Assembly (NCBI RefSeq): GCF_001518015.1
Contig: NZ_LPUY01000079.1
Location: forward strand, 1-64,000
Direction of reading: 5' to 3'
Length of the DNA stretch: 64,000 bases
Source: Tritonibacter horizontis
GTDB taxonomy: Bacteria > Pseudomonadota > Alphaproteobacteria > Rhodobacterales > Rhodobacteraceae
The notes below the pieces were generated by a model. It did no database searches and had not been told where the DNA came from. It worked only from the letters and a program-made list of their open reading frames with translations. Shown here piece after piece: positions 41,721-47,951 of the stretch. The first letter of the stretch is position 1, and every line of letters starts with the position of its first letter. Both the position numbers and the translations under genes were made by a program.

Positions 41721-43121
41721 TCAGGCGGCGGCTGAGTGGCCGGACTCTCGGATCGATGAGCGATTGCGACCGGCATGTTTGGCATCATAAAGCGCGCGGT
41801 CTGCAAGCGCGATGAGGTCATCGACCAGCGCCTCGGGCTTGCCATGTCCGCCGACGACCGCCCCGACACTGATGGTGACCTCTATGGGAGCCGCCACGCC
41901 CGCGACCGTGAACGGGGTGGCGTTGATCGCGGCGCAGAGACGCGCGGCCATGCTGGCAACCTCGTTGCTGGAAATGCCAGGCATGACCACCATGAATTCC
42001 TCGCCGCCGATCCGGGCCAGAAGGTCGCATCCGCGCAGCGCAACCTGCAGGCGACGGGCGGCCTCGACCAGAACGGCGTCACCGACCGGGTGGCCGTATT
42101 GATCGTTGATCTTCTTGAAGTGATCGAGATCCGCAACCATGACCGCAAATTGCTGACCGGTCTGGTCGGCTTCTTGCACGACACGCTCCAGAAAGGGCTT
42201 GGCATAGCGCCGATTGTAAAGACCCGTCATCGGGTCCTCCATCGCGGCACGAAGGCCGCTGCGCAGGTTGTCACGGATCATTTCCGCGCGGTGTTTGTAT
42301 TGCAGCTGGGTGTTGATCCGCAGGGCAAGCTCTTCGACCTGAAATCCGCAGTGCAACACATCATGTGCCCCACGATCCAGCGCTTCGGCCGCGATATTGG
42401 CGTCCGCCGGGTTGGGCACGGCAATCACGACACAGTCGCGGGTGGTAACGCGCGCCCGCAGATCCGCCAGCAACCGCAGCGACAGACCTGCCGATAATTC
42501 ATTGAGCTCGATGACGATGACATCGGGTACCGGCGAGCGCATCAGTTCCTGGATGGCGTCCACCGTGTGAGTCCGCAGGGTATAGCCAACCTGAGACGAA
42601 AGCCGGCCTTTCCATTTCTGCGCGGTCTGCAGATCGTGGCAAACCAGCGCAACATTGGTGTTCGCGCGCGGCGCCTGGGATACCGCATCTTTCAGGGGCA
42701 TCATCAGGGAATGGGGGCCGTCCTCGCGCAGATGCAGATCTTCATCCTGCATGCGCATGCGCAGCAGGCTGCGGATGCGCGCCTGGAGGATCATCTCGTC
42801 CACCGGCTGCGGCAGAACCTCGTCGATGCCGGCAGACAGTGCCTTGATCCGCGTGCTGCGATCGTTTTCCGTGCTGAGCGCAATAACCGGCACATTGGCA
42901 AGCTGAGGATGGCGCGCCAAGCCGCGTTTGACATCGGCGGCGTCGCCGTCCGGCAGGGTAATGGCCGTCAAAACCAGATCGGGACGATTGTCCCCGGTCA
43001 GCGCCATTGCAGCCGCGACACTATCCGCCTGCAGCACCTGAAAACAGGCCGCTGTCAGTTGCACCTTCAGAACGATGCGATTGATGGAGACCCCATCTAT
43101 GAGGAGGACCGTGCCTTGCAA
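41721..43121 (-). CDS. PleD-like diguanylate cyclase with degenerate receiver domains
   Basis: The protein has a REC-REC-GGDEF layout (about 466 residues). The first receiver (about 1-115) has LVLTAITLP where PleD has the phospho-acceptor aspartate, and only one acidic residue in LLIDGVS. The second receiver (about 135-255) has VIVIELNELS, with glutamate at the equivalent place. The C-terminal GGDEF domain has the active motif GGEEF in LARIGGEEFMVVMP and an upstream RGCD (RxxD) inhibitory site, so it should make and sense c-di-GMP. A TTG start at 43121 with AAAGGG upstream is preferred; an ATG at 43181 also opens the frame. Confidence 0.87.
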   Translation of the reverse strand: MQGTVLLIDGVSINRIVLKVQLTAACFQVLQADSVAAAMALTGDNRPDLVLTAITLPDGDAADVKRGLARHPQLANVPVIALSTENDRSTRIKALSAGIDEVLPQPVDEMILQARIRSLLRMRMQDEDLHLREDGPHSLMMPLKDAVSQAPRANTNVALVCHDLQTAQKWKGRLSSQVGYTLRTHTVDAIQELMRSPVPDVIVIELNELSAGLSLRLLADLRARVTTRDCVVIAVPNPADANIAAEALDRGAHDVLHCGFQVEELALRINTQLQYKHRAEMIRDNLRSGLRAAMEDPMTGLYNRRYAKPFLERVVQEADQTGQQFAVMVADLDHFKKINDQYGHPVGDAVLVEAARRLQVALRGCDLLARIGGEEFMVVMPGISSNEVASMAARLCAAINATPFTVAGVAAPIEVTISVGAVVGGHGKPEALVDDLIALADRALYDAKHAGRNRSSIRESGHSAAA

Positions 43122-43234
43122 GTCAAAACCCTTTATTTCTTCACTCTTAGTGACTTGAGTGTTGATGAGACTGGTTAACAAACCGTTTCGAGTTTAAAGC
43201 AAATTGACCTAAAAGTGTCGAGAAGGAGGCCAGG

Positions 43235-44260: not shown

Positions 44261-44386
44261 CCCGAACCTGTGCGGCAGGTGCCGACGGGAAAACGACATG
44301 GCGTGTCGGTAATGGACAGGTGTGTCCGGGGAGGTCTGGCCCATTGTGACAGGATATCCAGATTTCAGACCCAGGAGAGGGGCACC

Positions 44387-45946
44387 ATGTCGCAGACAGT
44401 TGCGCGCAAACGCCGCGGGGGCGGCAGGGCAGGGGCCGCGGCCCGTCGCGGCACGGCCACGCTCGAACAGATGCCCTGGGCGCCGCCCCTCAATATCGAC
44501 CGCCCCGTTGAGCCGCTGACACCGGAAGGGATCGCCGCCATTCACGATGGCGCGATGCGTATCCTCGAAGAAATCGGCGTGATGTTCCTCAATGACGAGG
44601 CGCTTGCGATCTTTCGGCAGGCCGGGGTCAAGGTCGATGGCGCGCTGGTGCGGATGGATCGTGATTTTGTCATGGAGATGATCGCCAAGGCGCCATCTGA
44701 ATTCACCCTCACACCGCGCAATCCGGATCACGCAATCCGCATCGGCGGCAACACGATGGTGTTCGGCAATGTCTCCTCGCCGCCGAACTACTGGGATCTC
44801 GATCTGAACAAAAAAGTCCCCGGTACGCGGGTGCATTGTCAGAATTTGTTGAAGCTGACGCAGTACTTCAACTGTATCCATTTTGCAGGCGGCTACCCGG
44901 TTGAACCCGTGGACCTGCATGCCTCCACCCGCCATCTGGATGTTCTCTATGACAAGCTGACGCTGACCGACAAAGTCATGCATGCCTATTCGCTCGGCAA
45001 GGAGCGGGTCGAGGATGTGATGGAAATGGTGCGGATTGCGGGCGGATTGAGCGAGGCCGAGTTCGAGGCCAAGCCGCATATGTACACCAATATCAATTCC
45101 ACCTCGCCGCTCAAACATGACGAGCCGATGATCGACGGGTCTTTGCGTCTCATCCGGCGTGGCCAGCCTGTAGTGGTGTCGCCCTTTACGCTGGCGGGGG
45201 CGATGGCGCCGGTAACGATGGCGGGGGCGGTCGCACAGTCCCTGGCGGAATCTCTCTGTGCAATTGCGTTGTTTCAATATGTCCGTCCCGGCGCCCCTTG
45301 CGCCATTGGCACGTTCACGTCGAATGTTGATATGAAATCCGGCGCGCCTGCCTTTGGCACGCCGGAATACATGCGGGCGACCCAGATGACAGGTCAGATG
45401 GCGCGCTTCTATAACCTGCCGCTGCGCTCCTCCGGGGTCTGCGCCGCGAATGTCCCCGATGGCCAAGCGATGTGGGAGACATCAAATTCGCTCTGGGCGG
45501 CGGTGCAATCCGGCACCCATATGGTCTATCACGCCGCTGGCTGGCTGGAGGGCGGGCTGATCGCAAGCCCGGAAAAATTCATTATGGACTGCGAAGTGCT
45601 GCAGATGATCCAGCGATATATGGATCCGTCGATCAACGCGACCGGAGTGGATGAAATCGCGCTGGATGCGATCCGCGAGGTCGGCAACGAGGGGCATTTC
45701 TTTGGCATCCAGCACACCCAGGATCGCTATGCCACCGCGTTCTATCAGCCGTTTCTGAGCGATTGGCGCAACTACGAAGCCTGGGAGGCGGCGGGCAGTG
45801 TCTGGACCGCGGAACGCGCCAACAAGATGTTCAAGGATATTCTGGCCGAATATCAGGAACCTGAAATGGATCCGGCCATCCGCGAGGAACTTGCTGCCTT
45901 TGTCGCCCGTCGCAAGGCCGAGGGCGGCGCCCCTACAGATTTTTAA
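44387..45946 (+). CDS. MttB-family (non-pyrrolysine) methyltransferase
   Basis: This 519-residue member of the trimethylamine methyltransferase superfamily has the conserved FGNVSSPPNYWDLD, NINSTSPLKHDEPMIDG and SPFTLAGAMAPVTMAG segments. There is no in-frame amber codon, so it is not a pyrrolysine enzyme. Non-pyrrolysine members such as MtgB demethylate glycine betaine with a corrinoid protein. No corrinoid protein or MtgA partner is adjacent, so the acceptor is unclear. The N-terminus (ARKRRGGGRAGAAARRG) is unusually basic. GGAGAGG precedes the ATG. Confidence 0.88.
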   Translation: MSQTVARKRRGGGRAGAAARRGTATLEQMPWAPPLNIDRPVEPLTPEGIAAIHDGAMRILEEIGVMFLNDEALAIFRQAGVKVDGALVRMDRDFVMEMIAKAPSEFTLTPRNPDHAIRIGGNTMVFGNVSSPPNYWDLDLNKKVPGTRVHCQNLLKLTQYFNCIHFAGGYPVEPVDLHASTRHLDVLYDKLTLTDKVMHAYSLGKERVEDVMEMVRIAGGLSEAEFEAKPHMYTNINSTSPLKHDEPMIDGSLRLIRRGQPVVVSPFTLAGAMAPVTMAGAVAQSLAESLCAIALFQYVRPGAPCAIGTFTSNVDMKSGAPAFGTPEYMRATQMTGQMARFYNLPLRSSGVCAANVPDGQAMWETSNSLWAAVQSGTHMVYHAAGWLEGGLIASPEKFIMDCEVLQMIQRYMDPSINATGVDEIALDAIREVGNEGHFFGIQHTQDRYATAFYQPFLSDWRNYEAWEAAGSVWTAERANKMFKDILAEYQEPEMDPAIREELAAFVARRKAEGGAPTDF

Positions 45947-46350
45947 CTTTCTGTCTTGCGCTGCCTTTGTTCGGTAACTTTCCTAACGAATTGACCCGCC
46001 GCGCTCACAAATTGTTGGAGCGCGGGAGGTTTTGCACTATGGTGCCCACGTTACGAGCAACACGGAAACGATAGGGAACGAGTAAAAACTCCCGCCTAGC
46101 AGGCGTATCAGGCGCTGAAAGCGGTGCTGGGAGAGTAAAACGAGCGATTCGCGACGTCAGGATGATTGAGTTCATGGGCCCGGTCCCATTGGCTCTTGTT
46201 CTGTATTTTCGGTGGCCGGACGGGATGGCATGCACACCTGCGTGACGCCGCCAGTGAATGCGTTATGAAGAATACGAAATTGTAAATATTCGGCCTTTCT
46301 TAAGCATGCGCGTTTAAGTCTGGTCCAAAGGTGAAATAGGGAAAGACCGT
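45947..46350. other. Intergenic region before the H-NOX gene
   Basis: No convincing gene was found in these 404 bases; a 76-codon minus-strand frame at 46005-46235 has no family match. The region contains a possible folded element at 46087-46136. It also contains a palindrome-like cttaa...ttaag at 46299-46318, 33 bases before the H-NOX start, and a duplicated taactttc near 45952 and 45974. Confidence 0.5.
46299..46318. promoter_or_regulatory. Palindromic site upstream of the H-NOX gene
   Basis: The arms cttaa (46299-46303) and ttaag (46314-46318) flank a GC-rich ten-base centre that itself contains gcatgc. It is 33 bases before the start codon, where an operator or the 3' part of the promoter would lie. 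Confidence 0.3.
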
Positions 46351-46938
46351 ATGCACGGTTTGATCAACAGGGCCGTTCAGGCGTTTGTCACCAGTACCTA
46401 TGGGGCAAAACGTTGGGATGAAATCATGGATGCGAGCGAGCTTGGGTTTGCCGAGTTCGAAGCCATGCTTGTGTACCCGGAAGATCAATCCATGCGGATG
46501 CTGCGCGCGGTGGAGCGCCGCCTGGAGCGTCCGTTGCCGGAAATTCTGGAAGACGTCGGCACGTTTCTTGTCTCGAACCCGCAGGTCGAGGCACTGCGAC
46601 GGCTCTTGCGGTTTGGCGGCGTCAACTATGTCGATTTCCTGCACTCTCTGGACGATCTGCCGGATCGCGCCCGCTTGGCTGTTTCTGACCTGCATTTGCC
46701 GGGGCTGGAATTGATCGAACAGGCGCCTGGTCAGTTCGATCTGCTCTGTCATCCCGGCGTCCCCGGCTATGCACAGGTCATGACCGGCGTTCTGCGGGCA
46801 ATGGCCGATGACTATGGTGCCCTGGTCATTCTCGATCAAACCGGAACGCAGGACGGGGCGGATGTGATTTCCATCACGTTGATCGAGAGCGAGTTCTCCG
46901 AAGGCCGGAGCTTTGATCTGGGGGCGCATCCACTATGA
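46351..46938 (+). CDS. H-NOX-like protein lacking haem-binding residues
   Basis: This 195-residue protein has the H-NOX (HNOB) fold signature: N-terminus MHGLINRAVQ, DVGTFLVSNP in place of FG-x-F and a final GADVISITLIE strand. By alignment to soluble guanylate cyclase, the proximal histidine position (LDALHDHL) is P104 in SLDDLPDRA. The YxSxR motif that holds the haem propionates reads CHPGV (133-137). Haem binding is therefore unlikely. Its stop overlaps the HNOBA-GGDEF gene by four bases, so it probably acts as an input or partner of that protein. Confidence 0.83.
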   Translation: MHGLINRAVQAFVTSTYGAKRWDEIMDASELGFAEFEAMLVYPEDQSMRMLRAVERRLERPLPEILEDVGTFLVSNPQVEALRRLLRFGGVNYVDFLHSLDDLPDRARLAVSDLHLPGLELIEQAPGQFDLLCHPGVPGYAQVMTGVLRAMADDYGALVILDQTGTQDGADVISITLIESEFSEGRSFDLGAHPL

Positions 46939-47951
46939 TGAGTTTTGATGACCTGAAGGCTTTGGCCAATCAAATCTGCCCCTTGCATGTGATCATCAAC
47001 GCCGAGGGCAAGATCGTCAGCTTCGGTCCCACATTGCAAAAACTCAGCAGCGGAGCCAGCTGGGCTGACCAGCCCTTCTTTGACATCTTCGAATTGCAGC
47101 GGCCCCGCTGGGTCAAGTCGATCGCCGACCTGTTGGAAACCACCGGCAGCAAGCTGCATTTCCAGCTTCGTTCGGAACCGCATACCCGCATGAAAGGGGT
47201 GCTGGTGCCACTGCCGGAGGGGCGGGGGGCCTTTATCAACCTGTCTTTTGGGATCTCTGTCCTGGATGCCGTCCGCGACTTCAACCTGACGAGCCAGGAC
47301 TTCTCGCCCACGGATCTGACCATCGAGATGCTCTATCTCGTGGAAGCAAAATCCGCCGCGATGGAAGCGTCGCGGCAGCTGAACCTGCGGCTTCAGGGGG
47401 CAAAGATCGCCGCGGAAGAGCAGGCCTTTACCGACACGCTGACCGGTTTGAAAAACCGTCGGGCGATGGATCATGTGTTGAACCGCCTGATCACAAGCGG
47501 CCGCGATTTTGCGCTCATGCATGTGGATCTCGACTTCTTTAAACAGGTCAACGACACTTTTGGCCATGCGGCGGGGGATGCTGTGTTGCAGCGGGTTGCC
47601 GCCATCATGGTGGAATGCACCCGCAAGTCCGACACCGTTGCCCGGGTCGGCGGCGATGAATTTGTCCTCATCTTCGAAGGGTTGATGGATCGCGACCGCC
47701 TCAATGAGCTCGCCAATCGGTTGATCTCCCGGTTGGAGGAACCGATCATGTATGGGGCCGAAACCTGCAAGATCTCGGCCTCGGTCGGCACATCGCTGTC
47801 GTCGTCCATGCTGGCACCGGATGCGGCGCAGCTGCTGCACCAGGCCGATGTGGCGCTTTATGCGGCCAAACGGGCGGGACGGGCGCAGCATATGTTCTAC
47901 GCGCCCCAGCAAGAGGCGCAAATGATGGAACAGGACAGCAAAACTGCGTGA
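46935..47951 (+). CDS. HNOBA-domain diguanylate cyclase
   Basis: This 338-residue cytoplasmic protein has an N-terminal HNOBA/PAS-like domain (about 8-135, CPLHVIINAEGKIVSFGPTL and FFDIFELQRP). A helical linker (about 135-165) leads to a C-terminal GGDEF domain with the intact motif GGDEF (about 239-243) and an RKSD inhibitory site before it. It should synthesise c-di-GMP. HNOBA domains normally bind H-NOX partners, and the overlapping upstream gene supplies one. Confidence 0.87.
   Translation: MMSFDDLKALANQICPLHVIINAEGKIVSFGPTLQKLSSGASWADQPFFDIFELQRPRWVKSIADLLETTGSKLHFQLRSEPHTRMKGVLVPLPEGRGAFINLSFGISVLDAVRDFNLTSQDFSPTDLTIEMLYLVEAKSAAMEASRQLNLRLQGAKIAAEEQAFTDTLTGLKNRRAMDHVLNRLITSGRDFALMHVDLDFFKQVNDTFGHAAGDAVLQRVAAIMVECTRKSDTVARVGGDEFVLIFEGLMDRDRLNELANRLISRLEEPIMYGAETCKISASVGTSLSSSMLAPDAAQLLHQADVALYAAKRAGRAQHMFYAPQQEAQMMEQDSKTA

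Follow-up and report, generated by a model that had tools for sequence, protein, structure and literature searches.

Soluble guanylate cyclase (sGC) is arranged in the order H-NOX, HNOBA/PAS, coiled coil and cyclase, and the H-NOX of its alpha subunit carries no haem. The H-NOX of Shewanella woodyi and Hnox1 of Legionella pneumophila are described as haem/NO sensors that act directly on an adjoining c-di-GMP enzyme (PMC8846402, PMC8738867), which in S. woodyi combines GGDEF with EAL (PMC8846402). In Dinoroseobacter shibae, the NO-bound H-NOX is reported to inhibit the cyclase Dgc1 (PMC7232146, PMC8846402), and PMC8846402 counts this H-NOX among the haem NO sensors.

Using a similarity network, Lee-Lopez and Yukl described in 2022 a "group 5" of H-NOX proteins, built from Paracoccus denitrificans Pden_3719 (hnoX)/Pden_3720 (dgcA), in which less than 10% of the members keep the proximal histidine, most have proline, and the signal is unknown (PMC8738867). 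The group is described as being without a conserved cysteine, and the legend of the neighbourhood figure includes GGDEF, HAD, and MTTB among its Pfam abbreviations, which the part of the review available to us ties to no particular group (PMC8738867). According to a 2017 study, the H-NOX proteins of P. denitrificans and Rhodobacter sphaeroides both lack the histidine, and hnoX of P. denitrificans overlaps the cyclase gene; the authors read the phenotype of the hnoX mutant as a loss of DgcA inhibition (PMC5588039). Direct quantitation of c-di-GMP is reported to have failed in P. denitrificans (PMC12582929). How the large His-less group senses anything is the question raised in this literature (PMC8738867).

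The H-NOX and cyclase genes of Tritonibacter horizontis

We analysed a 64,000-nucleotide stretch of the genome of the marine bacterium Tritonibacter horizontis (hereafter the window), in which an initial annotation had pointed to an H-NOX-like gene coupled to an HNOBA-GGDEF gene. The first open reading frame (46351..46938, + strand) encodes a protein of 195 aa with MHGLI at its N-terminus, which matched the Pfam profile HNOB (PF07700) with an E-value of 2e-20 and 73.8 bits against a cut-off of 25.5, and was the single H-NOX match in the whole genome. In a HMMER pairwise alignment that was gap-free around the site, Pro104 (codon 46660..46662, + strand) was placed onto H105 of the Nostoc H-NOX Alr2278, and multiple alignments of the H-NOX proteins from the collected loci gave the same placement. 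The haem-propionate motif Y134-x-S136-x-R138 of Alr2278 corresponded in the multiple alignment to C133-H134-P135-G136-V137 (codons 46747..46761, + strand), indicating that both the S and the R of the motif are absent.

A structure model based on a 69-sequence alignment had a mean pLDDT of 82.9 and a pTM of 0.78, with residues 182-195 below 50, and Pro104 lay inside a predicted helix (93-110). A PDB search with this model returned 52 matches at E ≤0.001; all of the 50 listed were H-NOX or sGC chains, identified by title except for a few, such as 3m0b and 3nvr, which we take to be chains of this kind. The top matches were the Nostoc H-NOX structures 4iae and 2o09 (TM 0.79/0.84). Since the pairwise and multiple alignments concurred and the fold matched, chance or misalignment at position 104 was ruled out. 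The proline at the position of the proximal His, CHPGV in place of YxSxR, and the otherwise kept fold signature with its MHGLI start, all of which the initial annotation had read from the letters, were borne out by these results.

The two reading frames share the 4 bases ATGA (46935..46938, + strand), and the second frame (46935..47951, + strand) matched HNOBA (PF07701, E 6e-8) and GGDEF (PF00990, E 1.5e-42), as the initial annotation had stated. Its translation reads RKSD-TVARV-GGDEF, with the RxxD inhibitory site (I-site) five residues ahead of GGDEF. The model of this partner showed a PAS-like domain, a 40-residue helix (125-164), and a GGDEF domain, with a mean pLDDT of 92.4 and a pTM of only 0.58; it matched best, at TM values over the query of about 0.5 or less, a PAS-GGDEF-EAL protein and further diguanylate cyclases. 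Judged from its sequence, the partner is expected to be an I-site diguanylate cyclase with an HNOBA domain and c-di-GMP as its product. The pair has the part order of sGC, but its H-NOX forms a chain of its own, and c-di-GMP is what the enzyme is expected to make. The partner combines HNOBA with GGDEF, unlike the GGDEF and EAL of the S. woodyi enzyme, and the haem/NO sensors of S. woodyi and L. pneumophila differ from the His-less protein of the window.

A contig scan gave at least 512 relatives, and the best 80, picked for closeness to the window, were analysed. Of these 80, 68 have ATGA at the stop of the H-NOX gene. An MTTB-family gene, which in the window lies at 44270..45946 (+ strand, profile match), precedes the pair in the same orientation in 70 of the 80, and at least one of the other ten (L061) has too little upstream DNA to show one; this conserved neighbour served as a synteny marker and lies outside the mechanism proposed below. 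In a set of 188 distinct pairs, chosen because the partner has a GGDEF-type motif, every partner carried GGDEF itself and 186 the I-site.

Distribution of the proximal histidine

The H-NOX gene was present in 17 of 18 genomes of the genus, the lone genome without it being 67% complete, and in 17/17 of those at least 90% complete. Position 104 was Pro in 16 of the 17 copies and Ser in one, and His in none. Likewise, all 80 close relatives (the best 80 of at least 512) were without His at this position.

Because these relatives were selected for closeness, rates were taken from 129 Rhodobacteraceae genomes, evenly drawn with one per genus; an earlier family search had matched 296 of 394 genomes, and some of the members listed in it entered the alignments and the tree but had no part in the rates. 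All 94 genomes with a match in the even sample were read, giving 107 rows, each assigned by the higher-scoring of two profiles (near-relative or Y-x-S-x-R-type), with none within 25 bits of a tie. The divergent group comprised 91 rows in 90 of the 129 genomes and was absent from 39. Two of the 91 rows were unreadable at the site, one (G078) where the contig end cuts the gene and one (G053) where the gene is split and the row holds its first piece, the other piece being read as Gln at position 104. The 89 readable copies had Pro (67), His (6), Asn (4), Ala (3), Gly (2), or Gln (2), and one each had Thr, Asp, Lys, Arg, and Glu; the position was therefore non-His in 83 of 89. Canonical H-NOX accounted for 16 rows in 15 genomes, with His in 15 and Gln in one, and 14 of the 16 had the full Y-x-S-x-R, a figure favoured by how the profile was built. 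Both kinds occurred together in 11 sampled genomes. A GGDEF gene came next after the divergent H-NOX in 86 of 91 rows, compared with 1 of 16 for the canonical type.

Across the class, 10 of 385 genomes matched the window protein, a query that would miss very distant relatives, and five of the ten lay outside the family; the four of these that were read all had His and Y-x-S-x-R, and the fifth was a short partial match. Two kinds of unusual sequence were seen during the survey. L142 (G103) is an otherwise canonical H-NOX with an intact Y-x-S-x-R and Gln for the proximal His. In one genus (G040, G413, and G430), the H-NOX is very divergent, reaching no more than 25-48 bits with the Pfam HNOB profile, which perhaps reflects further decay or fast divergence.

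The sample figures of 6/89 His and 67/89 Pro agree with the less than 10% His given for group 5 (PMC8738867). These rates and the GGDEF adjacency place the window H-NOX, compared with Pden_3719 through its published description, as a new member of this group, in which the proximal His is likewise replaced, mostly by Pro, and the gene overlaps that of a GGDEF enzyme. A possible difference lies in the cysteine at the old Y position: group 5 is described as lacking a conserved Cys (PMC8738867), whereas Cys133 was present in 79 of the 80 close relatives (best 80 of at least 512), compared with 47 of 89 copies in the even sample. The initial annotation had set this pair against the well-known NO-responsive H-NOX/cyclase pairs. 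The survey of homologues that it had called for showed that loss is the rule in the even sample, as in the published group as far as described (PMC8738867, PMC5588039), and the His-less H-NOX is the usual form of a widespread group, not an oddity of one genome.

We compared the window with the locus of D. shibae DFL 12 (genome G052, one H-NOX match). The H-NOX proteins were 48.7% and the cyclases 49.1% identical, the 4-base overlap was common to both, and an MTTB gene 74% identical to that of the window lay upstream in D. shibae, where one extra long open frame separates it from the H-NOX gene. On account of the identity, the overlap, and the MTTB neighbour, D. shibae H-NOX (Dshi_2815) and Dgc1 were taken as orthologs of the window pair. 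However, D. shibae reads DDLHDRARL where the window has DDLPDRARL, and C-I-W-H-R at the C-H-P-G-V site, so that it keeps the proximal His and the motif Arg (C-x-W-x-R), neither of which is found in the window. The sensor with experimental support for NO control is therefore a rare His-keeper, and homology alone should not be used to extend that control to the window. In the passages of H-NOX literature surveyed, to which the original D. shibae report did not belong, this point was not encountered; those of the 2022 review do not mention Dinoroseobacter (PMC8738867). The pair is real and conserved and its group already described, and the D. shibae comparison is what is added here. It sharpens the question of sensing, as it warns against taking NO control of the His-less majority for granted, and two orthologs that are 49% identical and unlike at the ligand position offer a ready system for studying a sensor after cofactor loss.

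The same comparison bears on the YxSxR motif, whose loss had been taken as a sign against haem. Y-x-S-x-R was absent in all 12 distinct His-keeping group members, and one of them, the D. shibae protein, figures among the haem NO sensors in PMC8846402, indicating that loss of the motif alone is no argument against haem.

Conservation and possible ligands of the His-less proteins

Against five congeners, the dN/dS of the H-NOX gene was 0.02-0.08, and three more distant relatives gave 0.09-0.15; these ratios are rough, given that dS was 0.9-2.3, near saturation. For the cyclase gene, dN/dS was 0.09-0.10 against the five congeners; values for L053-L055 were excluded, as indels throw the ungapped comparison out of register. 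The His-less H-NOX gene is under purifying selection. That the gene is decaying and functionless would fit its absence from 39 of the 129 sampled genomes and the broken copies in G053 (L277, in two frames) and G288 (L152, in-frame stop), which hint that the gene is under loss in some genera. For the window, decay was rejected on dN/dS, and the conserved columns described below, the GGDEF neighbour in 86 of 91 rows, and the presence of the gene in every near-complete genome of the genus also speak against it, making this reading hardly credible. A different ligand or a structural role, as the initial annotation proposed, is possible and fits the purifying selection.

To compare columns, 182 distinct His-less and 11 His-keeping group sequences were aligned with 44 canonical ones. 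Forty-six columns were conserved at ≥93% in the His-less set, and every one of them reached ≥82% in the His-keepers, whereas 35 of the 46 fell below 50% in the canonical sequences. The surfaces of the His-less and His-keeping proteins thus do not visibly differ, and the best-conserved part of the protein is unaltered where the ligand has been lost. R83-R84 and D153-D154-Y155 are examples of columns conserved in both kinds of copy. Gly70 and Pro117 were invariant (182/182 His-less, 11/11 His-keepers, and the canonical set), and Gly146 had a printed frequency of 1.0 in all three sets. Matched by alignment, G70 and G146 are the hinge glycines and P117 the haem-bending proline, with roles as given in PMC7108781, and all are kept in the window.

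A tree was built from 154 rows, comprising 146 group members less than 80% identical and 8 outgroup rows. The group formed one clade (SH-aLRT 99), and the window's branch of 73 rows contained zero His (support 93, not starred). The His state switched 11 times inside the group and 12 times including the outgroup, of which starred branches force just two. The tree fits repeated loss or occasional regain of His alike and cannot tell them apart; regain is possible, as H to P is a one-base change. In a tree-based test with two independent pairs on supported branches, no substitution was significantly coupled to the His state. This included partner Cys15 (2 usable pairs, median p 1), H-NOX Cys133, and Trp at the old Ser, for which the raw counts (6 of 12 His-keepers vs 6 of 183 His-less) were suggestive.

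Haem might still be bound through another residue or pocket contacts, in which case the protein would still sense NO or redox state. A screen of the H, C, M, and Y columns (≥40% in either set) gave none exclusive to His-less copies; a replacement ligand gained with the loss of His was rejected on this basis. The largest skews between His-less copies and the His-keepers, which numbered only 11, were at Tyr93 (49% vs 9%), at the start of the former ligand helix, Cys133 (73% vs 45%), and Met144 (53% vs 27%). His2 is found in 93% of His-less copies and is absent from canonical ones, but it is just as frequent in His-keepers (91%), indicating that it was not gained as a replacement. Cys133 occupies the old Y position in 133 of 183 distinct His-less copies, yet it exchanges with Val, Ile, and Leu, which suggests a buried structural residue. 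The retained fold and haem-bending proline are consistent with bound haem, and NO stimulates biofilm formation in P. denitrificans, part of which the authors placed in the H-NOX pathway in proposing NO control through H-NOX (PMC5588039). Against this stands the absence of the propionate-motif S and R from the window protein. Overall, we regard retention of haem as unlikely.

A non-haem ligand could instead have moved into the emptied pocket, or a thiol switch could operate, so that the pair reports another signal. The top structural match, 4iae, is Nostoc H-NOX with BAY 60-2770, presumably a drug occupying the place of haem, which indicates that the H-NOX fold can accept a non-haem ligand. The hinge residues are retained, and their strict conservation implies that movement still matters, making another input a serious rival. 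Cys15 of the partner was present in 131 of 178 pairs with a His-less H-NOX and in 0 of 10 with a His-keeper, exchanging mainly with Met; however, this association did not hold in the tree-based test. The haem-free H-NOX of Vibrio cholerae is reported to answer oxidation through cysteines (PMC7108781), but Cys133 is the sole Cys column at ≥40% in the His-less set, so a three-Cys zinc site like that of V. cholerae is lacking. His-less and His-keeping proteins are not clearly split by any of the 46 most conserved columns. We consider this reading unlikely. His2, Tyr93, Cys133, and partner Cys15 are leads, none of them established.

Proposed control of the partner cyclase

Judged by its motifs, the output side of the pair looks intact, and the haem-NO input looks missing. 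With moderate confidence, we read the window H-NOX as a pseudosensor, a regulatory subunit that works without haem and most likely inhibits the adjoining diguanylate cyclase. The intact partner, the locked gene pair, the unchanged columns and hinges, and the loss of the ligand make this the simplest account, in which we infer the absence of haem, the docking, and the inhibitory sign. The initial annotation had proposed a sensor that apparently cannot bind haem; the ligand His is truly lost, leaving the usual Fe-His switch unavailable, while inability to bind haem would be a step beyond that.

As a haem-independent subunit, the H-NOX would no longer use His-ligated haem, and surfaces common to haem-binding orthologs would let it dock on the HNOBA/PAS-coiled-coil part of the cyclase; the conserved columns indicate constraint and are no proof of docking. 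With no Fe-His bond to break, the protein would either hold a permanent signalling-like shape or be moved by something besides NO on haem. A shape locked in an NO-bound-like state is plausible. The H103G mutant of the Shewanella H-NOX was reportedly used as a mimic of the signalling state, and the entry 2kil, which we take to be this mutant, is in the list of PDB matches of the window model. A constitutively "on" protein need not keep its hinges strictly, which favours some remaining switch. As for the sign, the H-NOX would most likely inhibit the cyclase. Inhibition is the likelier direction because of the analogy with D. shibae and the mutant phenotype of P. denitrificans, and it is borrowed from this His-keeping ortholog and that phenotype.

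More tentatively, a broader history could be proposed, in which a haem NO receptor of Rhodobacteraceae became a haem-free allosteric subunit in several lineages while keeping the same cyclase output, in parallel to the haem-less alpha subunit of sGC; in lineages without the His, a thiol or a metabolite would provide the input in place of haem. We hold this extended version to be possible but doubtful.

Other elements of the genome and of the locus were recorded. No FIST/NosP match and no copper nitrite reductase above the cut-off were found in the window's own genome, which has nine GGDEF matches, eight of them above the cut-off. A second GGDEF-type protein of 486 aa (41721-43181, - strand) is encoded some 3 kb ahead of the H-NOX gene and, judged from sequence, has the look of a PleD-type receiver-receiver-GGEEF protein. 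In D. shibae, hnox is reported to belong to the CtrA regulon (PMC7232146); the CtrA site TTAA-N7-TTAA occurred in 0 of 79 upstream stretches, the window's among them, where the shuffle control covered single-base content only. The region ahead of the H-NOX start (about 46270-46350) is partly conserved in close relatives, with patches around TTTCTTAAG and GGTGA..TAGGGAA in L048-L052, and possibly contains a promoter or leader element.
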